Positions 14,514 to 33,688 of a stretch of DNA of 33,688 bases are shown piece after piece. This stretch comes from a virus: positions 1 through 33,688 of IMG/VR virus record IMGVR_UViG_3300025120_000258; one strand, given 5' to 3'. The notes under the pieces are model-generated. The model saw only the letters and a program-made list of their open reading frames with translations. It had not been told where the DNA came from and made no database searches. The number at the start of each line of letters is the position of its first letter. The stretch's first letter is position 1. Position numbers and translations under genes: made by a program.

Positions 14514-15064
14514 TGGCAGAAGAAAGATTAGATCTTAGAAAAGAAGTTTTTGATAAACTCCAGTATATTAAAACTATAAATACTAGTTTTAGTGAGTTGG
14601 GAGTAGAAACTCTTACTGAAGAATTGCAAAACCAACCAACAGTTGCAGAATTCTTTGGATTATATAATTCTCTTTTTTATGATATACCAGCATTAGGTGA
14701 TACTAATTCTCATCAATATTTAGTTAAAACTAGTGGTGATTATATTAATTTTGATCAAATAAATGAAGAAGTAGAAGCTTTACAAGCAGAAATAGCTCAG
14801 TTAAGAAGTGATTTACTTCAAGCTCAAATGACAAATATAAGAGTAGCTGCATCCGCTTCTAATAGTCAAGAAACGGATAATACATTAGCTGAATTAGAAT
14901 CTGAATTAGTAAGTGCTAACCAAGCATTAATTGCAGCAGCAGCCGGTGCTTCACAAGATGCAGCAGCAGACTATGATATAGATATAAGTGTAGGAGGGGG
15001 AAGTACAGCTGGTGAAGGAGGCTCAGTTAGTGATTCTGCACCAGATTCAAGTTATGGGGGATAA
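14513..15064 (+). CDS. Unknown protein with coiled coil and Gly/Ser tail
   Basis: The 183-residue product has a compact N-terminal part (about residues 1-80), a coiled coil (EEVEALQAEIAQLRSDLLQAQ, roughly 84-105), an alanine-rich helix and a flexible tail of G, S, D and A (SVGGGSTAGEGGSVSDS). It is coupled to the previous gene (TAATG) and ends 9 bases before the giant gene. A small linking or trimer-forming baseplate component fits. Family not recognised. Confidence 0.7.
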   Translation: MAEERLDLRKEVFDKLQYIKTINTSFSELGVETLTEELQNQPTVAEFFGLYNSLFYDIPALGDTNSHQYLVKTSGDYINFDQINEEVEALQAEIAQLRSDLLQAQMTNIRVAASASNSQETDNTLAELESELVSANQALIAAAAGASQDAAADYDIDISVGGGSTAGEGGSVSDSAPDSSYGG

Positions 15065-15073
15065 TAAAAAAAT

Positions 15074-18000: not shown

Positions 18001-21000
18001 CTTTTCACCAGCTAATCAAATTAATGATGATATTAATGCTCAATTAGGATATTTTAATATAGGAGATTATATTGGTGATCCAAGATTTGTTTCATCATCA
18101 GATTATAGTTATCCTGATTTAAATAGATTAAGAGATGCTTACTTTGAAAAGTATATAGACAGTTATGATATAGTTGATTTTATTAGATTAATTAAATTTT
18201 TTGATAATTCATTATTTAAAATGATTAAAGATTTTACTCCTGCTAGAACAAGTTTAGCTTCTGGTGTAGTAGTAAAACAACATTTATTAGAAAGAAATAG
18301 ACAAAGACCACCTCAAGTTTCATCTTCAAATGAAACATTAGAGGCATTAGTAGTTAATTTACCAAAAGATTATAGTTCAGGTTCTTTAGACTACCCACAA
18401 TATTCAACATCAGGTTCAGCTATATATAAATTTACAGGTGGGGCTGGTGGTTCAGTAAATAAATGGAATGGTTTACAAACTTATCAATTAACAAGTACTC
18501 ATATTTTAGCTGGTACAGAATTAATTAATAACGTAACTAGTGATACTATTAATTGGCCAGATTCTTCATTTACTTATGCAAATGTTAGTGCATCAGCAGT
18601 AACAGCCAAAAATGGAACTATTGATGTTATGTTAGGTCCTGCTCGAGGTTCTGTAAATTCAAGAGCATCAATAGAAAAACTCCCATTTCAAACATCATCA
18701 TCACTTACGGAATTTAGGGTTGGAGATACTATTATAGCAAATGGTAGTGACTTTAGTGCAAGTCTAACAGGACAAATAGTTATTACAGTTGATACTAATA
18801 TATTAGAACAACTTATATTTCCTAGTAATAGGTTTAATATAACACAAAGTTATAATATTGTAGGAACTGAAAGAAGTCCTAATGAATATTCTGTTATTAA
18901 TAGTACTTACTTTAATTATAGTAGTTCACAATTTTTAAGTGCTTCATATCAGGGTAGAGGATTTGAAGAAATAACTTCACAACATGAATTTTATGATGGT
19001 GAATTTAGTGGATCTAAAATAGTAGCCACTACACAATCACTAAACCCAGGTTGTTCACCCTATTTAAATGTAGTTGATAAAGGAGCTAGATATAATCCTT
19101 TATTTTTTAACGGAGAAATAAATTATAGTGAACAAGGATCAGTTTCTTTAAAGACTTTTAATAACCCAAATAATGAACCAATAGATGGATTTGCATGGAT
19201 TTATTCTCAAAAAATAACAAACCAACAATTATTGGCAGAAACTGGAGCAGATCCAAATTATAATTATGTTTTTTCTATAAAATTATCTAGAAGAGATCTT
19301 GATGGTAATGATGTAACAGATTATCTTGAAATTGGAACTGAAATTGAGGTTAATATGCCTTCTGCTCCAACATTTGGAGGTGGTATACCAACTTATTTAA
19401 TACAAGGAATAATACCTGAAGCTAATTCTGTAAGATTAAGAATTGCAATAGAAAAAGGAGACAATAAAGCCTCAGATCCTATAATTGTTAGTGAAAATTT
19501 ACTTTATAGTAGAGAAAATATATCTAGCCCAGCAGTTGGAGATATTTATTTTAAAGATTCTCAATCTTCGGCAAATTTTATTGATCCATATTCTTTAGAA
19601 AACATTATAATACCCGCATATTCTGAAAATAATATAGATAGTCAAGTTTATTTTGCTTCTGCATCGATAGCAAGTGGTTCTGGTGAAGGAACTCTTGAGG
19701 TATCATATAAATCTCGTACAGCAGGAAATGTTTCTATATTATATAACTATTCAGGGGCAGCTCAAATTTCATCTAATGGTACATCTAGTCAGTATAGATT
19801 TAATGTAGATGGAAGCACAGCTTTAATTAATCCTATTACAGGTGAATTACCTTCAGTTGGTACATTATTAGATATAAATCTAAGAACTCAGGGAGAATCA
19901 TTTTTTCCTATTACTTCTTCGGCAAATGGAGGATCTGAAAATTGGTCACTTGTTGTAGAGACAACATATACATCATCTGATAGTAATAGAAATGATTCTG
20001 ATTTACGACAACAAAATGTTTTTAAATCAGATACAAGTTTAAACCAAACAGAATTTGTAGTAGTATATTCAACCCCACAATCAGCATCACTACAATTTCC
20101 TAAATATAATTCCCCAACTACTAACTCAGTTGGAGGAACAAATCCATGGTATGGTCCACAAGGTTTAATAGGTCAACCTGGGCCGTTAAATTTAGGATTA
20201 CCTAACTTATCAATGGGGATAGGTACCCCAAGTGAAGGTGGAGTATTTGATCGTATATTAGCACAAGGTATGCTAAATGTAGAAAATAACGATGCTTATT
20301 TACAATTTGAAGCAACAGGAGAAGATGTACTAGTATCAAGTGGTTCTAGTGGAAAAAGATTAGCTAATATATCTAAAGACCCCTTTAGATATTCATCCTA
20401 TAATTTATATAGAACACCTAATGTTCCTTTAAATTTTTCAATGTCTTTCTTTTATAGTGCATCAAGTTTAGGTGATGGAAGTAGTGCATCCCCAATAACA
20501 TCATCAGGGGGTGTACATAATGGGCAAGGATATAACCCAAATAATGCAGGTAATACATCTCAAGCCCTTACATTAACATCAACTGGATCCGGTGCAGTAG
20601 GCTTATCAGCTAGAACATTTTTTGTGGAAACAGGATCAGGACACACTACTCTTACTGATGCTATTAATGCATTTCCATTACTCCCCTCATCAAGTTTTGG
20701 ACAAGTCTTTTCTGAAGGTAACTTTTTTGGAGCACAAATATCCCCCCAATCACAAGCAGGTACAACATTAAAGTCAAATGCACAATTAACTACTAACTGG
20801 GGTAAATTTGATATAGGGCTATCAAATGCATTCAATATGAAATATTATCCACTTAAAAATGTAGAGGATAATACTTTAGCTGGGGTAGGTAGAATAGGCC
20901 GTAATGGTGGACTTATACCTATTACTGAAGTACCTTATGATACATCAGATCCTAAGTTTAATGCTTTATATAGAGCAAATGGTGCATATACAACTAAATT

Positions 21001-24000
21001 AACCGGTTCTAATGCCGCAAGTGGAGGAGGTACTAACGAAGTATTAAGTGGTATTTTTACACCTCCAACTCAATTTGAAGGAGTGTCACCTCCTGTATTT
21101 GCTGAAGAATTAAATAATTTAATACCAGGAAATTCTGGGTCGGTTGAATATAACCAATCACTATTAACTGCTTCTCTTTTAACTAGACCAGCGGGTCATC
21201 CAAAAATAGCAATAAATGGTTCTGCTTCTTTATCTTATAATTTTGGTAAATTCCAATTTGCTGGGACACCAACAACAACACCAATAAAAACTATGACCCC
21301 ACTTTCGGGTTCAGATTTACAAACAGGTAATGGTACATGGAATCCTACTACAGGAGATATATATTGGCAAGCTAGTGCTTCAACTGGAGATGGTGCTTAT
21401 TCAATTGGGGAGGTAAATGGGTCATATAATTGGGATGAATGGGAATTTTTAGCAAGAAATAATTCTTCCACAGGATTTAATTTTAACTTCCTTACTTCAT
21501 TACAACCATATTATGATTTTGAAATTTTTTGTTATGTCCCAACTGGAGTAACATTTAATGCTACAGCTTCAGTACAACATTCAACTGGAAGTGATTATAG
21601 AATAGCAACTCAAGAATGCTATCCATTAGTGCAAGCTAATGGTGCTAGTTTTAATATAACTAACCCTTCAACAGGCCAAACAGAATCAGTTCAATTATAT
21701 AAAATTCAATTAATATTTGGAATTTCTAATGAAATCATACCCCGAAGTAGAGTTGTAACTGATGGTCCTTTTAGAGCAAGATTAGCAATTGAATCTTCTG
21801 TAGATTTTTCTTATTATGTAGATGAATGGGATGTTAGAGCGGTTATAATGAGATATCAAAAAGATGATGAAGTAAATGGTTCATTTGATGGTACTTCATA
21901 TGCATTTACAGGTGATGGTACTATAACAGGAACTGGATTAGGTGCATCTAATGATTTACAAATTTTTCAAACTGCTAATAGTAATGTCATACAATCTGGA
22001 TCTGTACACGTATCGGCATTATTAAAATATACAGGTTCTGTATATGATACTGCTACATCAAATACTGCATCAGTTGATATCGTATTAACTTCATCATTAT
22101 CTCAATCATATGATATTTATCCTGGAGCTGTAATAGATATAGAAAATTCAGCCTCAAATGCCGTAGGAACTTTTAGTAATTTTACTCCATATAATAGTAC
22201 TAGTAATACTTCTTCAACACTTAATTTAGCTGGGGGTATGTATTATATGCAATATTCTATGAGTAATTACTCTGCAAGTTTTACTGAAAATTATGATTTT
22301 CAATTTATAGCAGATTCAAACCAAGGAATAACAGTAACCCAAACATTATTACAGGGAACAGTTTCAACAGCTAACCCCACAGCTAGTATATACCCACAAA
22401 TTTATTTAGGAAATACTTCAGATAGAACAACTTTTGGTGAAATTGTACAATTTGAAAGTGGTGAAGTTCCTTTTACTAGAGCAGCAAATACATCATCAAC
22501 AGGATATTATTCATTCTCAGGAAGTTTTATCCCAATAGGGAGAGATGGATGGCAATTAAATGATTCATTAAGAATGGCTTTTAATGTTCAAAGAGAAGGT
22601 AGTAATATAGGAATAACAATTGTATCATCAAGTCTCGGCATATCACCAGGACAAAGTATTTATTCACCTTTAACAGCATCTGTAAACCCAAATGTGTTTA
22701 GAGTGCCAACTATTACACAATTTTCAATACCAACTTTTTATCAAAATGGTGTTTTACCATTTAGATTAGCATTAGATTGTCAACCTCTATTAAACAACTA
22801 TAATGCTAGTAGAAAAAGTGGATATATCATGGATGTTGATTACTCTAATGAATCTGGACCAATTATACCTGTTAATCAAAACCAAATCCTAGAAAATGTA
22901 GCAGTTAGAGCAGCAGTACCTGATTCTAATTATTCATCACAAGCTTGGACTATACCTAGATACTCAGGTTCTAGATCTATATGTAATCAAATAAATGTAT
23001 TTACTTATGGTGATATTGGTACTTACGGTCAATTACCTAATATTGAGAGTAGATTAGCCTACTTTGCTTACTTTGAATCTATTGTAAATCCTTATCCTTT
23101 ATATAATAATGCAACCCAACTAAATGTAGCTTATTTAATTGATGAACAAGAAAATGCATTACCTCCTTCATTAGGTGGACAAAGTTATGAAATAATGAAT
23201 ACACTTTACCCACCAGAAAGTGAAGTTTCTGTACAAGTAAACTCAGGTAGTAATATTTTACAAGAATTAAATGGCCCTCAAAATATAAAATCTGTAGGAC
23301 AAAGATATGAACCAATTAGTTTTTCTCAAACATCAAGTAATGGTTATACAAATAAAATACCATTATCTGGATCTGGTAGAATATCTGTTTATGATAATGT
23401 AGGAAGTGCTGCAGCAAAAACATTTTATGCAATGTCAATCATGGGTGGGGGTGTAACAGACGCATCAGATATAGCAGAATTAATTGGTAATCCTTATATA
23501 GACGGAAATTCTGCAGCGAACAGTGAATTCTATAGATTAAGACCAACCGCAAGTATTGTAACTGCTTCATATAATAATACTGATTCAGGTCCACTCCCAC
23601 CATTAGCAGTATATTCTAATGGGACTTTTTGTTTTACAAGTAGTGTTGATAATGTTGCCGGTCAACCATTAAAAAACCCACAAACTATATATGGTGAAAC
23701 TACTTTTGTAACATCATTTTTATATGAATCAGATACGGATGAAATGAGAATAATGCTTGGGTGTAAAAGACTTCCAGGTGGTGGTGGTTCTAATAATTTT
23801 ACTAATTTTAATTTAGTAGATATAGAATTAACTGCTTATTATTTAGGTCAAAGTAGATATTGTGGTAGTGTACTTGGTGCATTAGAAAATGGAGGTGGTT
23901 GGAGATCAGGGGTAATGGTAAAGTTTATTACACCTACTGGAGGTGAAAGTACTACCGTTCAACAAGATAGCAGTAAACGATATAATATGTTATTTGAAGA

Positions 24001-24871
24001 TCCAGTTATAAAAGCTTTATTATTAAATAGAGGAGTACAATGGAAAAGACATGGTGGTGTTGAAAATGGAGGACCTGTTGAATATCTAGAATGGAAAATA
24101 ACATATAATACAGAGGGTCGTGATTTTAATGCGGGTGATAGAATACAATTCCAATTATTTGGTAGTATGACAAAAACTGGTGGTAATAGAAGTTATTTAA
24201 ATGTCTTTTACCCTCAAGGATATGAATCCAGACAAGGAGAAAAATATTATTTACCAACAAACTATACAGTTGTAGGAGCATACGATTCAGCTGATGGAGA
24301 TAACACAGCATCAGCACCCTATTGGGAGTTTTCAGGTTCTGAATTAGACCATATAGAAATGGCATCTCCAAACTTTAATGAAGCTTATGGATCAGGATTT
24401 ACTCAAGGATATTTACCTTATGAAGCGGGTAATTCTCAATACTTTGAAGGTGGATTTGAACCTACAAATACTAAATTTCCAAGAATTACTAAACCACTTC
24501 AATTTAGAGTCAATGATGAAATAAGATTTGTAAATAACGAAACATATAATTATACTATTACAGCAGTAACTCCACCAGAAGAAAATATTAGTAGTACAGG
24601 GCAAGGAAAAGTTAAACTTAAACTAAATAAACCAGTTAATGGTGCTATTGATAAAAATTTCTTTTTAGTTAGAAGACCTACTGATGATGCAAGTATAGCA
24701 TATTTAAATTTAGATTATCCATATGATGCTGATATTACAAATGTTAATTTATCATCATCTGAATATTCTTCGGCAGGATTAATTTTACCAACATTCCCTT
24801 CAGAATTTATTAATGTTAGTGCTTCTCAAATAGTAAATAATTTAATTTCTAAAGGAATAATAAAATCTTAA
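15074..24871 (+). CDS. Giant gp7-like baseplate wedge/adhesin, 3,265 residues
   Basis: The N-terminal part is of phage wedge type: beta-rich start, then YDNVWTYTKDITNKFDADNR (near residue 446) and KRLYKRIYHNIPYLLKTKGT with AGIRALITAYGIP (about 545-580), the KGT...GIP pattern of gp7/tail-protein-I-like proteins. A LamG-like beta-sandwich follows (about 639-835, with SFQELRYYVNEIS), then FFDNSLFKMIKDFTPARTSL (about 1042-1061). The remaining 2,200 residues are Ser/Thr/Asn/Gly-rich beta modules like those of adhesins, with only about nine cysteines in the whole protein. T4 gp7 has 1,032 residues, so this is about three times longer. It probably joins the wedge to receptor binding. It ends in a short helix (ASQIVNNLISKGI). 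The frame is open throughout, with no frameshift seen. Confidence 0.75.
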   Translation: MKLKTTVTPILDSQTFEFQTYEDSDERLIIQTNLDTAFTASVDYIEYYIYNPNNVLVYPSTTVPLEQYNIKEGDVLLDPELNLETRGFDIGTYQISYNFYRKQLSSNVTEKYFISEISSDRTEIRLDSNVIVNELIISSSNSFIQTRENSEYFVDFYLNFGNNKTVIANNIQLDIDEGIDPTLLIKLYEPLPSNFSLKDELWVVTELSAPQAYKVVFPFDPIIEDDFTYLAGPNYSLNITQQTGTPSEPFSYSTLLNSDITSSINQIQSLLNEKEININIDYENYGNFINFSSAQTRLENFYYKVGLIQSASNDLENFYGQVSSGTVNQQFFSASTATLKNQINDIIKNFDGYEYFLYFNSGSLYSYPKSNTEPPFQLYATGSAQVLTWLGSANPNSAEYGGQALSASNYDENNRDWLYFSIPEYLRDDSANKKYELFVDMVGQYYDNVWTYTKDITNKFDADNRLDYGISKDLVADAIRDFSVKLYSNNFNTDDLFTAFLGLTPSGSAFPFPTMTGSLPTPSGYEYVDTKISASNDIMPLNDVNKRLYKRIYHNIPYLLKTKGTVAGIRALITAYGIPDTILRINEFGGKDRNEAQDYDLKQNVFNYAFNTGPSANNYISSSLQANSKFPVQSGDNKARTIQLRFKSPTLPLPVNNVASSDIRPLQSLWSTDDGGNLVLEYTGSGLISGSYSGSIPDPYDTYGTLKWIPAQGDNPDLSASVYLPFFNGDWWSVQMNVNENPTSSLYAANEIDGKIGFNESSSIVGFDNSFFNQATKGFLNKNLNVVFNDGTTYTPFSGSFQELRYYVNEISQSCFYDYTVNPYSNEGNGINSTPDQQFFRAALGTQLDTGSRTSIHPRVTGSAVQITQSFATNSEFYLDVPSDRDSQWVTNVEDIFQDQVVAGMKNRITEKIILKSSSLAEAPYGYNENSPDSTGDILPTQGRITASILSPMRSLQQNSFTSQSYTPNVDYLEVAFSPANQINDDINAQLGYFNIGDYIGDPRFVSSSDYSYPDLNRLRDAYFEKYIDSYDIVDFIRLIKFFDNSLFKMIKDFTPARTSLASGVVVKQHLLERNRQRPPQVSSSNETLEALVVNLPKDYSSGSLDYPQYSTSGSAIYKFTGGAGGSVNKWNGLQTYQLTSTHILAGTELINNVTSDTINWPDSSFTYANVSASAVTAKNGTIDVMLGPARGSVNSRASIEKLPFQTSSSLTEFRVGDTIIANGSDFSASLTGQIVITVDTNILEQLIFPSNRFNITQSYNIVGTERSPNEYSVINSTYFNYSSSQFLSASYQGRGFEEITSQHEFYDGEFSGSKIVATTQSLNPGCSPYLNVVDKGARYNPLFFNGEINYSEQGSVSLKTFNNPNNEPIDGFAWIYSQKITNQQLLAETGADPNYNYVFSIKLSRRDLDGNDVTDYLEIGTEIEVNMPSAPTFGGGIPTYLIQGIIPEANSVRLRIAIEKGDNKASDPIIVSENLLYSRENISSPAVGDIYFKDSQSSANFIDPYSLENIIIPAYSENNIDSQVYFASASIASGSGEGTLEVSYKSRTAGNVSILYNYSGAAQISSNGTSSQYRFNVDGSTALINPITGELPSVGTLLDINLRTQGESFFPITSSANGGSENWSLVVETTYTSSDSNRNDSDLRQQNVFKSDTSLNQTEFVVVYSTPQSASLQFPKYNSPTTNSVGGTNPWYGPQGLIGQPGPLNLGLPNLSMGIGTPSEGGVFDRILAQGMLNVENNDAYLQFEATGEDVLVSSGSSGKRLANISKDPFRYSSYNLYRTPNVPLNFSMSFFYSASSLGDGSSASPITSSGGVHNGQGYNPNNAGNTSQALTLTSTGSGAVGLSARTFFVETGSGHTTLTDAINAFPLLPSSSFGQVFSEGNFFGAQISPQSQAGTTLKSNAQLTTNWGKFDIGLSNAFNMKYYPLKNVEDNTLAGVGRIGRNGGLIPITEVPYDTSDPKFNALYRANGAYTTKLTGSNAASGGGTNEVLSGIFTPPTQFEGVSPPVFAEELNNLIPGNSGSVEYNQSLLTASLLTRPAGHPKIAINGSASLSYNFGKFQFAGTPTTTPIKTMTPLSGSDLQTGNGTWNPTTGDIYWQASASTGDGAYSIGEVNGSYNWDEWEFLARNNSSTGFNFNFLTSLQPYYDFEIFCYVPTGVTFNATASVQHSTGSDYRIATQECYPLVQANGASFNITNPSTGQTESVQLYKIQLIFGISNEIIPRSRVVTDGPFRARLAIESSVDFSYYVDEWDVRAVIMRYQKDDEVNGSFDGTSYAFTGDGTITGTGLGASNDLQIFQTANSNVIQSGSVHVSALLKYTGSVYDTATSNTASVDIVLTSSLSQSYDIYPGAVIDIENSASNAVGTFSNFTPYNSTSNTSSTLNLAGGMYYMQYSMSNYSASFTENYDFQFIADSNQGITVTQTLLQGTVSTANPTASIYPQIYLGNTSDRTTFGEIVQFESGEVPFTRAANTSSTGYYSFSGSFIPIGRDGWQLNDSLRMAFNVQREGSNIGITIVSSSLGISPGQSIYSPLTASVNPNVFRVPTITQFSIPTFYQNGVLPFRLALDCQPLLNNYNASRKSGYIMDVDYSNESGPIIPVNQNQILENVAVRAAVPDSNYSSQAWTIPRYSGSRSICNQINVFTYGDIGTYGQLPNIESRLAYFAYFESIVNPYPLYNNATQLNVAYLIDEQENALPPSLGGQSYEIMNTLYPPESEVSVQVNSGSNILQELNGPQNIKSVGQRYEPISFSQTSSNGYTNKIPLSGSGRISVYDNVGSAAAKTFYAMSIMGGGVTDASDIAELIGNPYIDGNSAANSEFYRLRPTASIVTASYNNTDSGPLPPLAVYSNGTFCFTSSVDNVAGQPLKNPQTIYGETTFVTSFLYESDTDEMRIMLGCKRLPGGGGSNNFTNFNLVDIELTAYYLGQSRYCGSVLGALENGGGWRSGVMVKFITPTGGESTTVQQDSSKRYNMLFEDPVIKALLLNRGVQWKRHGGVENGGPVEYLEWKITYNTEGRDFNAGDRIQFQLFGSMTKTGGNRSYLNVFYPQGYESRQGEKYYLPTNYTVVGAYDSADGDNTASAPYWEFSGSELDHIEMASPNFNEAYGSGFTQGYLPYEAGNSQYFEGGFEPTNTKFPRITKPLQFRVNDEIRFVNNETYNYTITAVTPPEENISSTGQGKVKLKLNKPVNGAIDKNFFLVRRPTDDASIAYLNLDYPYDADITNVNLSSSEYSSAGLILPTFPSEFINVSASQIVNNLISKGIIKS

Positions 24872-24880
24872 AAAAATCAT

Positions 24881-24913
24881 ATATTTATGACATATAACAA
24901 TATTTATATAAAA
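24881..24913 (+). promoter_or_regulatory. Tandem late-promoter motifs L5a and L5b
   Basis: ATATTTATGACATA (24881-24894) is followed by ATATTTATATAAAA (24900-24913), the second ending 8 bases before the ATG at 24922. Both keep the ATATTTAT half; the downstream half is degenerate. This is the only doubled copy in the window. Confidence 0.5.
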
Positions 24914-24921
24914 ATACAACA

Positions 24922-25590
24922 ATGGGATATTTAAATAACGCAGTAGTAACAGTTGACGCTATATTAACTACAAAAGGAAGAGAATTATTAGCAAGAAATG
25001 ATGGTTCTTTTCAAATTACACAATTCGCTTTAGCTGATGATGAAATTGATTATACACTTTATAATCCAAATCACCCATCTGGTTCCGCATATTATGGTGA
25101 AGCAATTGATAATATGCCTCTATTAGAAGCATTTCCAAGTGAAAACCAAATAATGAAATATAAATTAACAACATTACCTAGAGGCACAGCTAAATTACCT
25201 GTACTAGATTTAGGTTATGCTGGTATTGTATTAAAACAAGGTGCACAATTATCAATTACACCACAAACATTAAATTACTTAGGTAATGAACAAATTTTTG
25301 AAACATCAGGATATAGTGCAACTATTGGAGATGTAAGATTAATGAATACTTTTGTTGGACAAGGTATACAAACTGACGCAGCAATAACAGCAAATGCAAC
25401 AGCTACTACTACTATTGGTACTAGTATTTCTAAAACTGTAATAGGTACTCAAATTAATTTAACAGCAACAACTGTTAATACTTTATTTGGTAGTTTAACT
25501 CAATTAAAAACAACTTTAACAGTAACAGGTTTAGATAGTGGTGCAAGATTAACAATCCCAGTAACAGTAACTCAACAAGCATTAAATTAA
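24922..25590 (+). CDS. Virion structural protein, 222 residues
   Basis: The product starts MGYLNNAVVTVDAILTTKGR with FALADDEIDYTLYN and NMPLLEAFPSENQIMKYKL, a pattern I associate with structural proteins of marine T4-like phages, where an N-terminal helix-beta unit precedes a beta-rich end. The second half is rich in T, A, I and V. It lies at the head of the fibre operon behind the doubled late motif and six bases before the next structural gene. The position on the virion is not clear: neck, baseplate rim or fibre base are all possible. Confidence 0.7.
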   Translation: MGYLNNAVVTVDAILTTKGRELLARNDGSFQITQFALADDEIDYTLYNPNHPSGSAYYGEAIDNMPLLEAFPSENQIMKYKLTTLPRGTAKLPVLDLGYAGIVLKQGAQLSITPQTLNYLGNEQIFETSGYSATIGDVRLMNTFVGQGIQTDAAITANATATTTIGTSISKTVIGTQINLTATTVNTLFGSLTQLKTTLTVTGLDSGARLTIPVTVTQQALN

Positions 25591-25596
25591 TAAGAT

Positions 25597-26649
25597 ATGG
25601 CATTTAAAAGATTAGATCCTGAAGATTTTGTAGTAAGTTCAGATTCGGTAACATCAACAGTATGGAGTAATAATGCTCCCTCACTAAATTCTTACTTTAG
25701 TTCTTCAATTCAAAAAGAAGGTGCCTCTGGTCCTTTTTATATTAGCATATATAATACAGCATCTACAGATCCACAATCTGAAGTACAATTTCAAATTGCT
25801 TATGGAAATAAAAATGGTGGTGGAGGAGTAGATTATGATGGAGCAGTGCCAAATGTATCATCTACTTCAACAATTTATGGTCAATATAGAGCTTTAGTAT
25901 TAGAAGATGAAAATGCACAATTTATCTGGGGTGCAGATTTTACTGGAAGTGATGATAATGATTTTTATGCTATAAGTATAGAAAGAGCAAGGTATAAGCA
26001 AACATTATTACCTGGAGCTACAAATATTGTATTAAAAGCAGACGGTTCTTCAAACTCAGCTTTACATTTAACAGATAATTCAAATATGGTATCAACCCCT
26101 GATTTTTATGGTACAACTAGAGTTTACCAATTAATTAGTGGGTCTGATGGTTCTTCATTTGATGGAGGAACAGGATATACAACAAATAGTGGTTCTTATG
26201 GATGGGTTCTTCCTGATATTTCAACAATTTTACTAAATCCTTTTGCTTTAGCTAATACAAATGGTCAGGGTATTGGTTTAACTACAACAACTACTAATAA
26301 TAACAATTCTCAAAACCCAGAAGCATTATATCAAGTATTTTCTTCATCAGGAGCAGATACAGCAATACCTAATGTTTTTGAAGCTAATTCACAAGAAACT
26401 TTAACTTCTGATTTTGTATTTATTAGAACAAGAAATACAGAATTTAATTATTCAGAAAATCCAACATTTATATCTGGATCTACTGGTGAAGTAATTTATA
26501 CTTATTTTATAAATAACCCAACTGTATTTCCAACAACTATTGGTATGTATAACGATTCAAATGAATTATTAGCAGTAGCTAAACTGTCAAAACCATTGCA
26601 AAAAGATTTTACAAAAGAAGCTCTAGTAAGAGTGAAACTAGATTTCTAA
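25597..26649 (+). CDS. Virion structural protein A with shared C-terminal domain
   Basis: The 350-residue product is all-beta, starting MAFKRLDPEDFVVSSDSV. The last 70 residues (EFNYSENPTFISGST... TTIGMYNDSNELLAVAKLSKP) match the end of the next gene product (EFNYSTNPTIVSGST... TTVGLYDNNYNLLAVGKLAKP), so the two are paralogues or share an assembly domain. The N-termini are also alike in form (KRLDPEDFVVS and KQLNSQDLIVS). A poly-Thr/Asn run (TTTTTNNNNS) sits near residue 230. Probably a fibre or baseplate-peripheral protein. Confidence 0.7.
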   Translation: MAFKRLDPEDFVVSSDSVTSTVWSNNAPSLNSYFSSSIQKEGASGPFYISIYNTASTDPQSEVQFQIAYGNKNGGGGVDYDGAVPNVSSTSTIYGQYRALVLEDENAQFIWGADFTGSDDNDFYAISIERARYKQTLLPGATNIVLKADGSSNSALHLTDNSNMVSTPDFYGTTRVYQLISGSDGSSFDGGTGYTTNSGSYGWVLPDISTILLNPFALANTNGQGIGLTTTTTNNNNSQNPEALYQVFSSSGADTAIPNVFEANSQETLTSDFVFIRTRNTEFNYSENPTFISGSTGEVIYTYFINNPTVFPTTIGMYNDSNELLAVAKLSKPLQKDFTKEALVRVKLDF

Positions 26650-26654
26650 AATGA

Positions 26655-27770
26655 ATGAGCGCTTACAAACAACTAAACTCGCAAGACTTAATTGTATCTC
26701 CATTTGAAGTAAACAAAGGTTTTTACTTTCAAGGGGGTGAAGCCCTAACTGGGTCCGATGTACAAATTGGCAGATATCTAGGAAGAAGTGGCGATTGGCT
26801 AACTTCAGGAAGTATCCCTGGTACGGGTAGCCAAATTTTTAATAATAATGGTAATTTACCTGGGACTACCCAATACCCTATTGTTTTAATATATAATCAA
26901 ATTCAACAACTTTATTATGGAAATTACATATCTGGAAGTGGTGGATTTATGGGCGATGCTATTACATCTAGCATAGCTTTAGGAGCTGATGAAAATGGAA
27001 ATAGACGTATTGGTAAAATACAATCAACGAATTTTTATGATTACCCCCAAACAACTTTATGGCCTAATAGAGATTTTCCAACAGCAAGTGCTGCAACAGG
27101 ATCAGTACCAATTGGGGTAATATCAATTCCTACAAAATTATACGGTGATTATATCCAACCTCAATCTTTTTTAATAAAACATAATACAAGTGGATCTATT
27201 GGAGACGATGGAGAAGGAAGATTGTATTATAACTTTAATAATGTTAATAATGATCCCGCACAATATATGATGGGTAATATTATTTATGAACATGGTATAA
27301 TTACTTTATTTGATTCAAAATTAGTAGGTCAAGATTATCAAATAGGTTATGGACAAACCGCATCATATGGAAATACTATATATGGTACTCAAGAAATTGA
27401 AACAGAACTTTTTATAGATGCTTTTATTAATGATAGAGAAGTTACAATGTCATTTTCTAGTTCATACAAGTTATTTGAAACCCAATATCAAGTAACTATA
27501 AATGAAGATGAATTTAATTATTCTACTAACCCAACAATAGTAAGTGGAAGTACATTCCCGGTTAATTTAACAGAGTCAGCACCTTCATTAACATCTTCTT
27601 ATTATGGAAGACCTTTAGATTTTTCAACAGGATCTTATTTTGAACCTTATATAACCACAGTAGGTTTATATGATAATAATTATAATTTATTAGCAGTAGG
27701 AAAATTAGCAAAACCCTTACAGGCCTCTAGTGTAACAGATACTACAATTCTAGTAAATATAGATAGATAG
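26655..27770 (+). CDS. Virion structural protein B, paralogue of the preceding gene
   Basis: The 371-residue product starts MSAYKQLNSQDLIVSPFEVN and ends with the same domain as the product of the gene at 25597, with an insertion of about 17 residues before TTVGLYD. The middle part differs fully. An out-of-frame ATG at 26651 leads quickly to a stop, so the ATG at 26655 is used. It is followed by late motif L6. The pair probably arose by duplication with divergence of the exposed parts, as in fibre or whisker-type proteins. Confidence 0.7.
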   Translation: MSAYKQLNSQDLIVSPFEVNKGFYFQGGEALTGSDVQIGRYLGRSGDWLTSGSIPGTGSQIFNNNGNLPGTTQYPIVLIYNQIQQLYYGNYISGSGGFMGDAITSSIALGADENGNRRIGKIQSTNFYDYPQTTLWPNRDFPTASAATGSVPIGVISIPTKLYGDYIQPQSFLIKHNTSGSIGDDGEGRLYYNFNNVNNDPAQYMMGNIIYEHGIITLFDSKLVGQDYQIGYGQTASYGNTIYGTQEIETELFIDAFINDREVTMSFSSSYKLFETQYQVTINEDEFNYSTNPTIVSGSTFPVNLTESAPSLTSSYYGRPLDFSTGSYFEPYITTVGLYDNNYNLLAVGKLAKPLQASSVTDTTILVNIDR

Positions 27771-27773
27771 CTA

Positions 27774-27787
27774 ATATTTATAATAAA
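27774..27787 (+). promoter_or_regulatory. Late-promoter motif L6
   Basis: ATATTTATAATAAA ends 12 bases before the ATG of the repeat-fibre gene at 27800. Confidence 0.65.
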
Positions 27788-27799
27788 CAAGTATATAAA

Positions 27800-30766
27800 A
27801 TGGCAAAAGTACTTAATTACGAATCACAAATACAACAAGGAGAATTAGTTCAATCATGGCATGTATCACAATCAGTTGATGCATTTACTGGTGTTCAAGA
27901 TTATGCAATATCAATATCTGGTTCTGTTAATTTAACAAGTTCATTAACTATAAAACCAGATAATTTATTAACTACTGGTCAAAATTATTTACTAACCTAT
28001 AATAATACTACTGGTCAAGTATTTAAAGCTTTATCTTCAAGCATACAAGCAGCATCAACTCAAACAGTATATAGAACGGGATCAAGTGATAATAATATAA
28101 TTCCTAATAAATTTGGTGTTTTTGACAACACTGGTACTAATTCTTCAATAGCTTCAGGTAATTTAAATAAAATTAATTCTAATTGTACTTTTATAGGAGG
28201 AGGTATTAGCAATACTGCATCAGAGCATGCTTGTTTTTCTATTATTGGAGCAGGACAAAGCAATACTATTTCAGCCAGTATGTGCTCATTTATTGGATCT
28301 GGAAATAATAATTGTATTTTAGCATCTCTTAGTGGTTCCTTTAATAAGGCAAATGCAATTGTTGGAGGTTCTAATAATAAAATTCTTCGTGGAGAATGTA
28401 ATATTATTGGAAGTGGAGAATATAATATAATAGGTATTGATGCTTCTAATATTCTTCCTGGTGCTAGATATGCATTTATTGGTGCTGGTGTTAGAAATTC
28501 GGCTTCACGTGAAGCATGTTGTTCATTTATAGGTGGAGGATGTGGTAATAGTGTTTGTGGTTACCTAAATTTTATAGGAGGAGGTGAAAATAATTGCACC
28601 CAAGATCATCATACAACTATAGTAGGTGGAGGTAATAACATAGTAAATGGCGAATATGGATTTATAGGTGGTGGTTTTGTTAATCAAATTAATTTAGAAG
28701 ATTTTCAAGTAATAGTAGGAGGTTCTAATAACTGTATTACTGATAATGGCTGTAATAGCTTTATTGGGGGAGGGTGTAGAAATAAAATATGTTCAGTTTC
28801 AGGTCTTCCAAATTATTGCTCACCTTTTTCTTCTATATTAGGAGGGTGTCAAAATGCAATAGGTAATGGTTGTTTTGATGCTCACTTTAGTGTAATTGGA
28901 GGTGGTCAATCTAACACATCTTCAGCCTGTTACAGTGGTGTTTTTAGTGGTTTAAGTAATTATATTTGTAATGGCCATTATAGTACAATTGTAGGAGGTA
29001 CTTTAAACACTGCATCATCAGCATGTAGTTTTATAGGAGGTGGAAAATGTAATAAAGTAGATACTCAATCTCCCTCATCTGTAATAGGAGGTGGTACTAA
29101 TAACACTATAATATCAGCAAGCCATGGAGCTGTATTTTCAGGAATAAATAATTCAGTAAAAGAAATGTGTGGTTTTATAGGTGGTGGTCATAGTAATATC
29201 ATACAAATATCAGCTAATAACTTAGGATATAATGTTATAGGTGGTGGCCAATGCAACGAAGCTGCATGTGGAGGTTCTGCCGTATTAGGAGGGGCTCAAA
29301 ATGATGCTAATGGATGTCTCTCATTTATAGGTGGTGGTTTCTTTAACAAAAATGATATGTGTTATGGAGTTATAGCTGGGGGGTGTCAAAACAAATTAGC
29401 AACAGCAAAATGTAGATCTTCTATTGTTGGGGGTGCTTTAAATACAATATCAAGTAGTTTTTCATTTATAGGAGGAGGTTATGCAAATACATCATCAGGA
29501 GGTAATTATAATGTTATTGTAGGTGGTTTTGATAATGTATCATTTGCGGCATGTAGTTTTATTGGAGCTGGTTCAGGTAGTTTTATTAGTGGAAGTAATG
29601 ATCATGCATCATTTATTGGAGCGGGTAAAGGAAATAAAATTCAAGGACATTTAAATTTAGGTTCTTCTTATAGTGCTATTGTAGCAGGAGATAGAAATTT
29701 AATTACAGGAGCATCTGCATCAATTGATGGTAATAATTTTATAGGTGCAGGTCAACTAAATAAAATTGAAGAATTTTCACATAATTCCTCTATTGTTGGT
29801 GGTTTTTCTAACTTTATTTGTAATACTTCTACATATGGGAGAGGGTTTGATAATTCAATTTTAGGTGGAAGTCAAAATTATATAATAGGACATATTGGAT
29901 GCTTTGCATATAATACTATTACAGGTGGTAAAGATAATAAAATTATAGCAAACTCAGGATCGATTTCAGGTTCGTTTAATGGTAGTAATTCTATATTAGG
30001 GGGAAGTTTTAATTGTATTTCAATTGAACCCAATTGCAGTGCATGTTGGAAAGGAAGTAATACTATTGTTGGAGGTGCTTTTAACAAAATATGTGATTCT
30101 AAAATTACTGATATTACAAAGCATAATACTATTATTGGCGGCACTAGTAACAGAATATCAGGATCCGTACAATCAAATATTATTGGAGGAAATGGTAATA
30201 TTATAAGAAACTCAAAGGCAAGTGCAATTTTAGGTGGTTGTAATATTAGTATAGTACCAGCAAGTAAGGCATGTAATTTTGTTATAGCTGCAACTTGTGA
30301 TTACACAATTGATCCATGTAATAATACATTTTATACTTGTAATGCTGTTATAAATGGGTCTTTAGTTAAATCTTCTGGTACATTTAAAATAAACCACCCT
30401 AACTCAGATTTATCTGCCACACATGATTTATACCATAGTTTTGTTGAATCACCTACAGCAGGAGATAACATTTATAGATTTTCTGTTACAACTATTAATA
30501 ATGAAGCAGAAATTATATTACCTGAATATTATAGATATTTAAATAAAGATAGCCAATTGTGGGTTAGTGCAGACGGACATTTTGGAAAAGCTTTCGGTTT
30601 AGTAAATATTAGTGCTACTAAAATTAAAATTACATCAAATGAAGATGGTAAATATAATATAATGTTAGTAGGAACTAGAAAAGATACGGCGGCAACTAAT
30701 GCATGGAAAGGTGTTGTACGTGAAAAAACAGAAACAGAAAAATTAAATTACAAAAATAACTTGTAA
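27800..30766 (+). CDS. Cysteine-rich repeat tail fibre/adhesin, 988 residues
   Basis: The product has an N-terminal domain (residues 1-125), about 39 repeats of the form (S/T/A)-(F/I/V)-I-G-G-G-x-x-N-x-(I/A) spaced by 15-25 residues (about 131-820), and a C-terminal domain starting TFKINHPNSD (861-988) with LYHSFVESP, ILPEYYRYLNKD and MLVGTRKD. That last domain is known from ends of phage fibres and trimeric adhesins. The repeats resemble YadA-head-like left-handed beta-rolls. About 40 cysteines occur, nearly all in the repeats, unlike the other virion proteins here. It is very likely the receptor-binding fibre. The repeats are diverged in sequence and not recent copies. Confidence 0.85.
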   Translation: MAKVLNYESQIQQGELVQSWHVSQSVDAFTGVQDYAISISGSVNLTSSLTIKPDNLLTTGQNYLLTYNNTTGQVFKALSSSIQAASTQTVYRTGSSDNNIIPNKFGVFDNTGTNSSIASGNLNKINSNCTFIGGGISNTASEHACFSIIGAGQSNTISASMCSFIGSGNNNCILASLSGSFNKANAIVGGSNNKILRGECNIIGSGEYNIIGIDASNILPGARYAFIGAGVRNSASREACCSFIGGGCGNSVCGYLNFIGGGENNCTQDHHTTIVGGGNNIVNGEYGFIGGGFVNQINLEDFQVIVGGSNNCITDNGCNSFIGGGCRNKICSVSGLPNYCSPFSSILGGCQNAIGNGCFDAHFSVIGGGQSNTSSACYSGVFSGLSNYICNGHYSTIVGGTLNTASSACSFIGGGKCNKVDTQSPSSVIGGGTNNTIISASHGAVFSGINNSVKEMCGFIGGGHSNIIQISANNLGYNVIGGGQCNEAACGGSAVLGGAQNDANGCLSFIGGGFFNKNDMCYGVIAGGCQNKLATAKCRSSIVGGALNTISSSFSFIGGGYANTSSGGNYNVIVGGFDNVSFAACSFIGAGSGSFISGSNDHASFIGAGKGNKIQGHLNLGSSYSAIVAGDRNLITGASASIDGNNFIGAGQLNKIEEFSHNSSIVGGFSNFICNTSTYGRGFDNSILGGSQNYIIGHIGCFAYNTITGGKDNKIIANSGSISGSFNGSNSILGGSFNCISIEPNCSACWKGSNTIVGGAFNKICDSKITDITKHNTIIGGTSNRISGSVQSNIIGGNGNIIRNSKASAILGGCNISIVPASKACNFVIAATCDYTIDPCNNTFYTCNAVINGSLVKSSGTFKINHPNSDLSATHDLYHSFVESPTAGDNIYRFSVTTINNEAEIILPEYYRYLNKDSQLWVSADGHFGKAFGLVNISATKIKITSNEDGKYNIMLVGTRKDTAATNAWKGVVREKTETEKLNYKNNL
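28187..30246 (+). repeat. About 39 diverged coding repeats of an IGGG-x-x-N motif
   Basis: The DNA repeats a core like TTTATAGGAGGAGGT (Phe-Ile-Gly-Gly-Gly) with many synonymous changes. I counted about 39 copies by eye in the translated protein, at variable spacing. The first copy is TFIGGGISN near residue 130 and the last AILGGCN near residue 810. Confidence 0.8.
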
Positions 30767-30784: not shown

Positions 30785-30798
30785 ATATTTATAACAAA
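30785..30798 (+). promoter_or_regulatory. Late-promoter motif L7
   Basis: ATATTTATAACAAA ends 7 bases before the ATG of the sulfotransferase gene at 30806, placing that gene in the late class. Confidence 0.65.
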
Positions 30799-30805
30799 TA
30801 GTATT

Positions 30806-31636
30806 ATGCATTCAAACACACCAAATTTTATTATCGCAGGAGTTATGAAAGGTGGCACAACAGCAGCCGCTTTTAACTTAAACAAACATCAAAATATTTT
30901 TTGTTTAACTCAATATTGGAAAAATAGAGTTTTAAATGATGAAGACTATAATTATGCTGCTCAAACAGGTTCTTGGGCTGGTAATATGAAAGTAGCAAAT
31001 AAAGAAACTGATTATTTTAATTTAGATACTAATTATAATTTATCTGGTTCATTTGATATATATAAATCCTTTTTTCCAAGAAACTTAGAAGCAATAGGAG
31101 AATCTTCACCTAATTATTTTCCTTTAGATGAAAACAATAATGGGGGAGCAGCAACAAGAATAGCATCAGACTTACCAGATGCTAAAGTAATTATTTTATT
31201 AAGAGATCCAATTAATAGAGCTTATAGTCATTGGAATCATATAGATTCAAAAAGACCAAGTTGGGGTAGTGCTTACCATGATAATTCATTTATTGATGTA
31301 GTAAAAGTAGATGGTAATAATCTAGTTTCTAGAAGTAAATATTTAGCTAATTTAACAGCATGGGTAACAGCTATAGGATCAGATAAAGTTTATGTCGCCT
31401 TACAAGAAAGTATATTAGCAAATCCACTAGAAGAATATAATAAAATATGTACCTTTTTAGGGGTTGATCCTTTTGAAGATACACAGTCCTTTATAAAAAT
31501 ATTTGAAGGAAATTATAATAGTACAATATTATCCTCAACTAAAGATTATTTAAAACCAGTATTTGCTAGCGATGTTGCAGGAGTAAAAGATTTATATCCA
31601 CATCTAGATTATAGTTTGTGGGAGGATTATTCGTAA
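30806..31636 (+). CDS. Sulfotransferase (PAPS-dependent)
   Basis: The 276-residue product has both cofactor-binding motifs of the sulfotransferase family: a 5'-phosphosulfate loop FIIAGVMKGGTTA (residues 8-20, Lys15) and the 3'-phosphate motif VIILLRDPINRAYSHW (128-143, Arg133, Arg138, Ser141), plus GESSPNYF (98-105) typical of heparan-sulfate-type enzymes. It would move sulfate from PAPS to a sugar hydroxyl or tyrosine in the cytoplasm; no signal peptide or membrane anchor is seen. It follows the fibre gene behind its own late motif and precedes a glycosyltransferase. The host must supply PAPS, since no kinase or sulfurylase is encoded here. Confidence 0.88.
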   Translation: MHSNTPNFIIAGVMKGGTTAAAFNLNKHQNIFCLTQYWKNRVLNDEDYNYAAQTGSWAGNMKVANKETDYFNLDTNYNLSGSFDIYKSFFPRNLEAIGESSPNYFPLDENNNGGAATRIASDLPDAKVIILLRDPINRAYSHWNHIDSKRPSWGSAYHDNSFIDVVKVDGNNLVSRSKYLANLTAWVTAIGSDKVYVALQESILANPLEEYNKICTFLGVDPFEDTQSFIKIFEGNYNSTILSSTKDYLKPVFASDVAGVKDLYPHLDYSLWEDYS

Positions 31637-31663
31637 AGTTTTATTTTTAATTAGTTATATTTC

Positions 31664-32371
31664 ATGATTTCAATAGATATTAACGCAGTTACAGTCTGTG
31701 TGAATTTTTCTCATTACCTTAAATATTGTATTTCAAATAAAAGATTTTTTAAAAGATGGGTTATTGTAACCCATGAAGATGATAATGAAACTATTAAATT
31801 GTGCAAAAAACATAATTTAGAATACATTTTATCTAAAACTATATATGATAGAAAATTTAACAAAGGATCGGCAATAAATGAAGGTATTAATTATATAGGT
31901 AAAGACCAAGAATGGTATTGCCATATAGATGCAGACGTTTTATTACAAGATAATTTTCCATCAACTTTTTCTTCAACTCATATCAATGGAAAACTTAGAC
32001 ACACGTATTTAGAACGTGTTTTACCGCATAATCATGAATTAGGTACAATGCCAGATGCTCTTTATTTATATACAATGGGTAGGATTAATCTTAATGGAGA
32101 CGAAAATCTTGATGAAATTAATTTTAAAGAAACATTTAAAATGGAAAGTAAAATAGTACAACAATGGTTAGGTTGGGGCTATTTTCAATTGTTTAATTTA
32201 AAAGCTTTAAATAAAGTATATGAAAATCTTTACCAAGTATATCCAACAATGTCTAGTAATGCTGGGACAGATGATTATGTTTTTAAACAACTATTTTACC
32301 AAGTAATCTCTTTAAATACACATTGTATTCATCTATCCCCAGAAAAAATTTATTGGGATGGAATTGGATAA
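31664..32371 (+). CDS. Glycosyltransferase, GT-A fold
   Basis: The 235-residue product shows a GT-A pattern: RWVIVTHEDD (residues 31-40), FNKGSAINEGINY (65-77; the N-K-G..A.N-G motif of nucleotide-sugar enzymes) and CHIDADVLL (86-94) with the metal-binding D-A-D at 89-91. A later GWGYFQLFN and GTDDYVF are consistent with the acceptor side and a catalytic acid. No membrane segment. It follows the sulfotransferase by 27 bases, without a clear late motif of its own (TTATATTTCATG only), so the two are probably one transcript and may act on the same glycan. Donor sugar and acceptor are unknown. Confidence 0.75.
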   Translation: MISIDINAVTVCVNFSHYLKYCISNKRFFKRWVIVTHEDDNETIKLCKKHNLEYILSKTIYDRKFNKGSAINEGINYIGKDQEWYCHIDADVLLQDNFPSTFSSTHINGKLRHTYLERVLPHNHELGTMPDALYLYTMGRINLNGDENLDEINFKETFKMESKIVQQWLGWGYFQLFNLKALNKVYENLYQVYPTMSSNAGTDDYVFKQLFYQVISLNTHCIHLSPEKIYWDGIG

Positions 32372-32396
32372 TACGTATAATCACAAAAATACACAT

Positions 32397-32879
32397 ATGA
32401 GTTGGACCTATAAAACACACAAAATAGGAGACATTACTCAATTCCCAGAAAATACATTTGGTTTCGTTTATATAGTTACACATAAACCCACAGGAAAATC
32501 ATATATTGGAAAAAAAGTCTTATTTCATAATAAAAAAAAGCGACTTGGTAAAAAAGAGTTAGCAGCATTAACTGGAATTGTTGGACGTCGTCCTACCTAT
32601 AAATTAGAAGTTAAAGAATCAGATTGGAAAAAATATTATGGTTCCCAAAAAGATATTAAACAACTACTTTTAGAAGGTAAAAAAGATGAATTTGAACGCA
32701 TAATTTTAAAAATGTGTCCCAATAAAAAATCAATGACATATTTTGAAATTAAATATCAAATGATATATCAAGTATTAGAAAAACCTGATGAATTTTTTAA
32801 TGATAATATTTTAGGTAAATTTTTTACAAAAGATTTAATAGATATTGAATTTGAAGATTTCGTGTCAGATAAAATATAG
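32397..32879 (+). CDS. GIY-YIG-type nuclease-like protein
   Basis: The start at 32397 (MSWTYKTHK) is chosen over an in-frame ATG at 32358 that overlaps the previous gene by 14 bases. The 160-residue product has FGFVYIVTHKPTGKSYIGKK (residues 21-40), the VYI...YIG core of GIY-YIG nucleases, then a basic stretch, SDWKKYYGS, and YFEIKYQMIY where a catalytic glutamate is expected. Similar stand-alone proteins are common in T4-like phages, sometimes annotated as homing or intron-type endonucleases. No intron is visible at its borders. It could act in host DNA degradation, recombination or competition between phages. Confidence 0.75.
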   Translation: MSWTYKTHKIGDITQFPENTFGFVYIVTHKPTGKSYIGKKVLFHNKKKRLGKKELAALTGIVGRRPTYKLEVKESDWKKYYGSQKDIKQLLLEGKKDEFERIILKMCPNKKSMTYFEIKYQMIYQVLEKPDEFFNDNILGKFFTKDLIDIEFEDFVSDKI

Positions 32880-32897
32880 TTTCATATATTACCACAT

Positions 32898-33688
32898 ATG
32901 GTAAATCAATTACTGGTTACGTTAGTGAACTCTGTGTTAGGTTCGGGCAAAGCTACTGCTCGAAATAATTATGCTTACCACTGTCCTTTTTGTAATCACC
33001 ATAAACCAAAATTAGAAGTTAATCTAACTGAGAATCGTGAAGGTAAAAATCCTTGGCATTGTTGGGCATGTGATGTTAGAGGTACTACTATATATAATTT
33101 ATTTAAACAATTAAAAACCGATATAAGTAAATTTACAGAACTTAAATCATTAGTTAAAACTTCAAAATCAATAAAAGAAACACAAGTTGTATCTAGTGTT
33201 GTATTACCTAATGAATATATTGGCCTAAATAACGTTGATACTAGCGATATTATGGCTAGACACGCGCTTGCGTACCTAAAAAATAGACACATAAGTAAAT
33301 ACGATATAATCAAGTATAATATGGGTTATTGTAAAGAAGGTTTATATAAAAATATGATTATTATCCCAACATATGACGCAGATGGTAGATTAAATTACTT
33401 TACTGCTCGTTCATTTGAAAAAGAACCATATGTTAAATACCGTAATCCATCAGCAAGTAGAGATGTAATCCCAAATGAACATTTAATAAACTGGAACGTA
33501 CCAGTTATTTTATGTGAAGGACTATTTGATGCTATTGCTATAAAAAGAAATGCTATCCCTTTATTAGGAAAAAACATACAGAGTAGTTTAATGAAAAAGA
33601 TAGTTACATCTGTAGTAGATAAAATTTATATTGCATTAGATAGGGATGCAATTAAACAAGCTTTAAAATTCTGCGAGAAGTTAATGGC
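32898..33688 (+). CDS. gp61: DNA primase (gp61-like), cut by the window edge
   Basis: The frame opens at ATG 32898 and stays open to the last base (263 codons seen). It has an N-terminal zinc-binding domain (YHCPFCNHHKP... and HCWACDVRG, residues about 25-65), a linker and a TOPRIM domain with LCEGLFDAIAI (catalytic Glu) and IYIALDRDA (D-x-D). This is the layout of T4 gp61, which makes RNA primers with helicase gp41 at the replication fork. It is 18 bases after the GIY-YIG gene, marking the start of a replication gene group to the right. The C-terminal part lies outside the window. Confidence 0.88.
   Translation, partial: MVNQLLVTLVNSVLGSGKATARNNYAYHCPFCNHHKPKLEVNLTENREGKNPWHCWACDVRGTTIYNLFKQLKTDISKFTELKSLVKTSKSIKETQVVSSVVLPNEYIGLNNVDTSDIMARHALAYLKNRHISKYDIIKYNMGYCKEGLYKNMIIIPTYDADGRLNYFTARSFEKEPYVKYRNPSASRDVIPNEHLINWNVPVILCEGLFDAIAIKRNAIPLLGKNIQSSLMKKIVTSVVDKIYIALDRDAIKQALKFCEKLM

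Follow-up and report, generated by a model that had tools for sequence, protein, structure and literature searches.

Why would a phage carry a sulfotransferase gene and a glycosyltransferase gene directly behind its tail-fibre gene, and on what would the two enzymes act? The question arises in a 33,688-nt fragment of the uncultured virus record IMGVR_UViG_3300025120_000258 (the window), for which the best deposited relative is Flavobacterium phage vB_FspM_immuto (Immutovirus). The source is a T4-like phage related to immuto, and because this closest deposited relative is a Flavobacterium phage, the host probably belongs to Bacteroidota. Window positions 13362-27770 are collinear with the baseplate/fibre-side genes of immuto and SegE and primase come next in both, so that the two phages agree in the order of the genes flanking the slot, from the baseplate region and fibre to SegE and primase. 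In immuto, the slot is filled by other tail fibre/spike genes, whereas the window clade has its fibre, sulfotransferase and glycosyltransferase genes there; neither enzyme has a match in immuto. The features of the locus are as follows.

27774..27783, + strand: promoter-like motif ATATTTATAA of the fibre gene (motif scan)
27800..30766, + strand: predicted tail-fibre gene, with an IGGG..N repeat shaft (25 repeats, 40 Cys) and the C-terminal domain HSFVESPTAGD..
30785..30794, + strand: promoter-like motif ATATTTATAA of the sulfotransferase gene (motif scan; kept in the nearest relatives)
30806..31636, + strand: predicted PAPS-dependent sulfotransferase (Sulfotransfer_3), glycan-sulfotransferase-like (Pfam, motifs, predicted fold)
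30839..30862, + strand: 5'-PSB motif GVMKGGTT, the PAPS 5'-phosphosulfate loop (alignment)
31100..31102, + strand: Glu99, counterpart of the catalytic base of 3-OST (alignment; invariant)
31199..31231, + strand: 3'-PB motif LLRDPINRAYS, PAPS 3'-phosphate binding (alignment)
31664..32371, + strand: predicted GT-A-type glycosyltransferase, in every case immediately after the sulfotransferase (predicted fold, invariant motifs, synteny)
31928..31936, + strand: DxD metal/nucleotide-sugar motif, D89-A-D91 (invariant in alignment)
32270..32275, + strand: DD (D203-D204), candidate catalytic acid pair (invariant in alignment; putative role)
32358..32879 (start may be 32397), + strand: SegE-type GIY-YIG endonuclease, slot flank (Pfam; immuto homolog at the same place)
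32898..33686, + strand: DNA primase, other slot flank, running off the window (Pfam and other profile matches)

The ORF at 27800-30766 was taken as a putative tail fibre on three grounds: the repeats, the C-terminal domain and the location, where immuto too has a tail fibre. A 3265-aa ORF (window 15074-24871), called a giant adhesin in an earlier note on this DNA, sits among the baseplate-region genes. Over its N-terminal part it shares 34% identity with a 1265-aa immuto protein at the same position, and no Pfam or PHROG match was found in the parts scanned. The adhesin label is therefore not established. At the flank of the slot, SegE-type GIY-YIG proteins (immuto26A_171 and phrog_447) are annotated "NAD synthetase" in phage genomes and PHROGs; the match of the window homolog to Pfam SegE at 1.7e-26 suggests that this label is wrong.

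Two predicted enzymes and their expression

The 276-aa sulfotransferase ORF lies directly after the fibre ORF, on the strand shared with the glycosyltransferase ORF, and matched both PF13469 Sulfotransfer_3 (E 2.1e-13; 51.5 bits, cut-off 27) and PF00685 (40.1 bits, cut-off 22). Residues K15 of the 5'-PSB motif and R133 and S141 of the 3'-PB motif did not vary across 12 aligned sequences with identities as low as 42%. Also invariant in these 12 was E99, which lies in GESSPNYF and aligns with the Glu of 3-OST "MEKTPSYF", a position that we take, from established knowledge of 3-OST, to be that of the catalytic base. The earlier note had described the PAPS-binding motifs as intact, and this was borne out. 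The protein thus appears to be a member of the PAPS-dependent sulfotransferase superfamily, with a presumed sulfotransferase activity.

In Foldseek comparisons, the AlphaFold model of the sulfotransferase (pLDDT 80, pTM 0.83) matched 3rnl and heparan NDST/3-OST with TM scores of 0.61-0.68 and the tyrosylprotein sulfotransferases (TPST) with scores of 0.39-0.49, below every glycan sulfotransferase. A phmmer search against solved structures matched 3rnl, 3-OST and NDST. By sequence and predicted fold, the enzyme would accordingly sit nearest to the glycan sulfotransferases (heparan NDST/3-OST) and not the tyrosine sulfotransferases. It has the PAPS motifs, the catalytic-Glu position and the predicted fold in common with NDST, 3-OST and the bacterial Sulfotransfer_3 protein 3rnl, at only about 17-23% identity, and differs from them in being viral and soluble.

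The 235-aa glycosyltransferase ORF starts 27 nt past the end of the sulfotransferase. Its match to PF13704 (E 0.0013, 19.6 bits) fell under the cut-off of 27.5, and one of five AlphaFold models was good (mean pLDDT 73); this model matched GT-A enzymes, first SpsA 1qg8 (E 5e-7, TM 0.56). We therefore place the predicted enzyme in the GT-A fold class and do not claim Pfam or GT2 family membership. The SpsA-like predicted fold, together with the invariant DxD and DD, agrees with the GT-A assignment previously made from the letters of the DNA.

Tblastn found no significant match to the sulfotransferase (E up to 10) or the glycosyltransferase in deposited phages, and PHROGs and NCBIfam hold no family for either. 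When bacteria and archaea were scanned at one genome per species, we found a single, weak (23%) relative of the glycosyltransferase and no bacterial source of the pair. Both genes appear to be under purifying selection, stronger on the glycosyltransferase (dN/dS of 0.08-0.17, compared with 0.17-0.42 for the sulfotransferase in a codon comparison).

The motif ATATTTATAA occurs seven times in the window, always on the + strand, and none of 100 shuffles of the window reached seven copies (mean, 1.96). For TATTTATA, 7 of 11 plus-strand sites lie 12-17 nt ahead of the ATG of an ORF (window 1442, 4093, 7315, 10669, 24901, 27775 and 30786), including those of the fibre and sulfotransferase genes, whereas none of the seven reverse-oriented sites is placed 12-17 nt before an ATG. 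The sulfotransferase had been credited with its own late promoter. A promoter-like motif in common with the fibre gene is indeed present, but "late" is a reading suggested by the occurrence of the same motif before structural genes, so the motif is best called a presumptive late promoter. Given the 27-nt gap and the lack of a separate promoter-like motif before the glycosyltransferase, the two genes are probably cotranscribed. With the motif this close to the ATG, the transcript would have hardly any leader in which to place a Shine-Dalgarno site, an arrangement compatible with a Bacteroidota host.

Linkage of the pair to the fibre in relatives

We scanned 2.9 million viral contigs with short conserved peptides, a search in which more distant relatives can be missed. 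Eighteen contigs contained the sulfotransferase and 20 the glycosyltransferase, all 18 of the former among them. Of the two extra glycosyltransferase contigs, one is truncated by the contig end and the other is a 27% outlier. The two genes were adjacent and in constant order in 18/18 environmental viral contigs, down to 41-48% identity, and a fibre-like gene lay at most about 6 kb upstream of the pair in all 17 records with upstream DNA, which represent 14 distinct viruses (L021-L024 are near-copies). Co-occurrence of pair and fibre in relatives had been set as a test by the earlier note, and the linkage held. Two syntenic relatives, L143 and L144, carry an IGGG-repeat fibre and lack the pair, and their 31-40 kb records hold no PF13469 sulfotransferase; the pair is therefore not needed for such a fibre.

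A scan with the C-terminal domain of the fibre (HSFVESPTAGD..) found it in 61 viral loci. Among loci with three or more IGGG repeats in the fibre, 29/34 had a sulfotransferase and/or sulfate-activation gene within about 5 kb downstream, compared with 3/23 loci whose fibre had the same domain and no IGGG repeats (counting only fibres with at least 250 aa in view); these loci are related by descent and so are phylogenetically non-independent. Three of the five exceptions among the IGGG-repeat loci carry a sulfotransferase elsewhere in the record. With near-copies collapsed by hand and distant prophage-like fibres dropped, the counts were 18/22 versus 2/9 (p 0.003).

Fibres of another kind occur as well, with 1782 collagen-like G-x-y residues in L018 (L018:1597-9678) and 645 in L020, and the L018 fibre adjoins the same sulfotransferase-glycosyltransferase pair. 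We considered a collagen-like fibre as the general acceptor and rejected it for the window, whose fibre has no collagen-like tract. A 2OG-Fe(II) oxygenase in L028 and GT25 in L021-L024 beside such loci are reminiscent of collagen modification.

The two enzymes do not have the same history. The fibre end and sulfotransferase of the window group with L002 (44 informative sites versus 2 and 6), and its glycosyltransferase, SegE and primase group with L003 (49 versus 16 and 6), the switch lying near 31.7-31.85 kb. In L019, the sulfotransferase is nearest to L017/L018 (74-78%) and the glycosyltransferase to L016 (92%), so that the former comes from a different lineage than the glycosyltransferase and the fibre C-terminal domain (L016/L017/L018/L019 are the same contigs as L004/L008/L009/L010). 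Because the groupings of the two genes differ in both the window and L019, the sulfotransferase appears to move between lineages independently of the glycosyltransferase, and on at least one occasion the fibre end moved with it.

Many relatives have further genes. Thirteen of 20 related records contain an APS-kinase-type gene, which in most of them is accompanied by an HxGH nucleotidyltransferase and DUF2061. Other genes sometimes found beside it encode a HAD protein, GT25, a 2OG-Fe(II) oxygenase, or a second (Sulfotransfer_3) and third (Sulfotransfer_2) sulfotransferase. The kinase gene is absent from the window and from six clade records, all of which are fragments.

Acceptor and role of the pair

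We give about even chances to the pair acting by glycosylation, then sulfation, of an acceptor of the fibre locus, most likely the fibre itself. The pair would then be a two-enzyme sulfoglycosylation module of the fibre locus in a T4-like phage, working in the infected cell while the fibre is being made. A soluble GT-A enzyme would put a sugar on the acceptor and a soluble sulfotransferase would move sulfate from PAPS to that sugar; with the phage's own repeat-shaft fibre as the likeliest acceptor, virions would carry negatively charged sulfated glycans. PAPS would come from the host or from genes outside the fragment in the window lineage, and in many relatives from their own APS-kinase/HxGH/DUF2061 trio. 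We infer the enzyme activities, the order of the reactions, the late timing and the identity of the acceptor from several lines of evidence: the pair is unbroken, with a fibre-like gene upstream and a promoter-like motif in common with the fibre; the sulfotransferase fold is of the glycan type; there is the association with IGGG repeats; and the fibre end and sulfotransferase have a recombination history distinct from that of the downstream genes. The addition in relatives of GT25, a 2OG-Fe(II) oxygenase and further sulfotransferases, which are glycan- or protein-modifying, points the same way, as does the finding that neither protein of the pair has a hydrophobic segment.

The fibre as acceptor has to be weighed against a different target, since a place beside the fibre gene would also suit enzymes that modify the fibre's receptor. 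The pair might alter the host surface polysaccharide late in infection, which would keep progeny from adhering to debris or shut out superinfecting phages; it would accompany the fibre because enzymes and fibre are directed at one receptor. This would explain the link to fibre type and the cotransfer with the fibre end, and is compatible with the glycan-type fold and with the GT9-like/heptosyltransferase-like glycosyltransferases (a weak match only) in many related loci. L143 and L144, the foreign lineage of the L019 sulfotransferase and the lack of PAPS genes in window-clade fragments also weigh against the fibre. We nevertheless consider receptor modification, though it is the main rival to the fibre reading, rather unlikely: neither protein has a membrane segment, late expression would leave little time for a surface change, and the neighbours examined include no Gtr-like flippase or membrane glycosyltransferase. 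In this last respect, the locus differs from Gtr serotype conversion (flippase GtrA, bactoprenol transferase GtrB and a multi-pass Gtr), as no Gtr-like gene was found in the Pfam-scanned neighbours.

A metabolic role, in which the pair makes a sulfated small molecule or alters host sulfur flow, strikes us as improbable. APS-kinase-type genes are common in the related records and widespread in other phages, and Sulfotransfer_3 enzymes are able to use small molecules, but the tight linkage to the fibre gene, the structural-type promoter motifs and the want of activation genes at the locus in the window clade argue otherwise. Tyrosine sulfation of virion proteins, which the earlier note had also raised, would make the glycosyltransferase an unrelated neighbour, which its unbroken pairing with the sulfotransferase renders unlikely. 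The superfamily is common to both kinds of enzyme and TPST structures do appear in the fold search, but with scores so far below those of the glycan sulfotransferases that a glycan acceptor fits better, and we regard this explanation as very improbable indeed.

Virion glycosylation by phage enzymes is known from mycobacteriophages Che8 and Rita, in which, according to PMC11256854, phage-encoded glycosyltransferases are thought to decorate virion proteins. That target is the capsid, and no sulfation is mentioned, whereas the window has a predicted fibre-linked glycosyltransferase and sulfotransferase with a putative sulfated product. Sulfotransferases have been reported in OM43 phages, and their function in phage genomes was called unclear (PMC10580990). 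Like cyanophages S-SCSM1, S-SKS1 and S-SRM01, the last with glycosyltransferase and sugar-epimerase neighbours, these phages encode Sulfotransfer_3 type proteins, but the proteins match the second type found in relatives of the window (ST2, about 30%) and not the window sulfotransferase. Our literature search, which covered few subscription papers, brought up no account of a phage sulfation cassette linked to the fibre.

A fibre-linked pair, natural relatives without it and testable fibres provide a concrete substrate hypothesis for phage sulfotransferases. To our knowledge, sulfated glycans on phage virions are undescribed; if the fibre is indeed the acceptor, charge and sulfation would form a new level of recognition between aquatic phages and their hosts, and one that can be exchanged.

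Candidate sulfate activation in related loci

The additional genes of relatives raise the tentative idea, which we think doubtful as a whole, that aquatic phages with IGGG-repeat or collagen-like fibres have a self-contained fibre-sulfation system with several sulfotransferases and glycosyltransferases and their own PAPS supply, of which the window pair would be a core that persists without the supply genes. The supply would consist of the APS kinase, the 116-aa HxGH nucleotidyltransferase as a minimal ATP sulfurylase, and DUF2061. If so, the cassette as a whole would point towards a pair of sulfate-activating enzymes that has so far gone unrecognised. Loci with the trio are listed here.

L025:11579-12576: phage kinase, ~116-aa HxGH and DUF2061
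L127:4492-5626: bacterial kinase, ~116-aa HxGH and DUF2061; also in L129, L130 and L132

All matches of the kinase profile to solved structures at E below 1e-6 were APS kinases, and HxGH matched NMN adenylyltransferases. With the HxGH profile, a kinase gene was found in 77/78 loci, mostly directly adjacent. These loci are usually without a recognised PF13469 sulfotransferase (above the cut-off in 12/50 records), which implies that the kinase-HxGH pair has an independent existence. The trio is located after cysH in four small alphaproteobacterial genomes, in one case within a cysG-cysI-cysH operon. No Sat or CysN scored above the cut-off in three of these four genomes, which are drafts that can miss genes; classical Sat is present in the fourth. 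In another genome (L126:3075-5627), CysN, CysC and DUF2061 are fused in one ORF after cysH and cysD, a fusion that links the membrane protein DUF2061 to sulfate assimilation.

Taken together, the bacterial cysH-linked clusters, the CysN-CysC-DUF2061 fusion and the lack of Sat and CysN in three of four genomes support the reading of the trio as sulfate activation and make the APS-kinase-like protein and HxGH candidate minimal sulfate-activating enzymes. We do not claim HxGH as a proven ATP sulfurylase, given the trio genome that also has classical Sat. HxGH and kinase might instead serve NAD salvage of the NadR type, an explanation disfavoured by the exclusive match of the kinase to APS kinases among its top solved structures and by the four bacterial cysH-DUF2061-kinase-HxGH clusters. 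APS-kinase-like enzymes can serve other pathways, as does the cytidine diphosphoramidate kinase of Campylobacter jejuni, so that the trio is best described as a putative PAPS supply.

In Stenotrophomonas phages DLP_6 and Bhz60 (L123:5590-6321 and L124:5584-6324), kinase and HxGH are fused in one protein, with annotated neighbours that include NADAR, MazG and cysteine dioxygenase in Bhz60 and an Fe(II)-dependent oxygenase in DLP_6.
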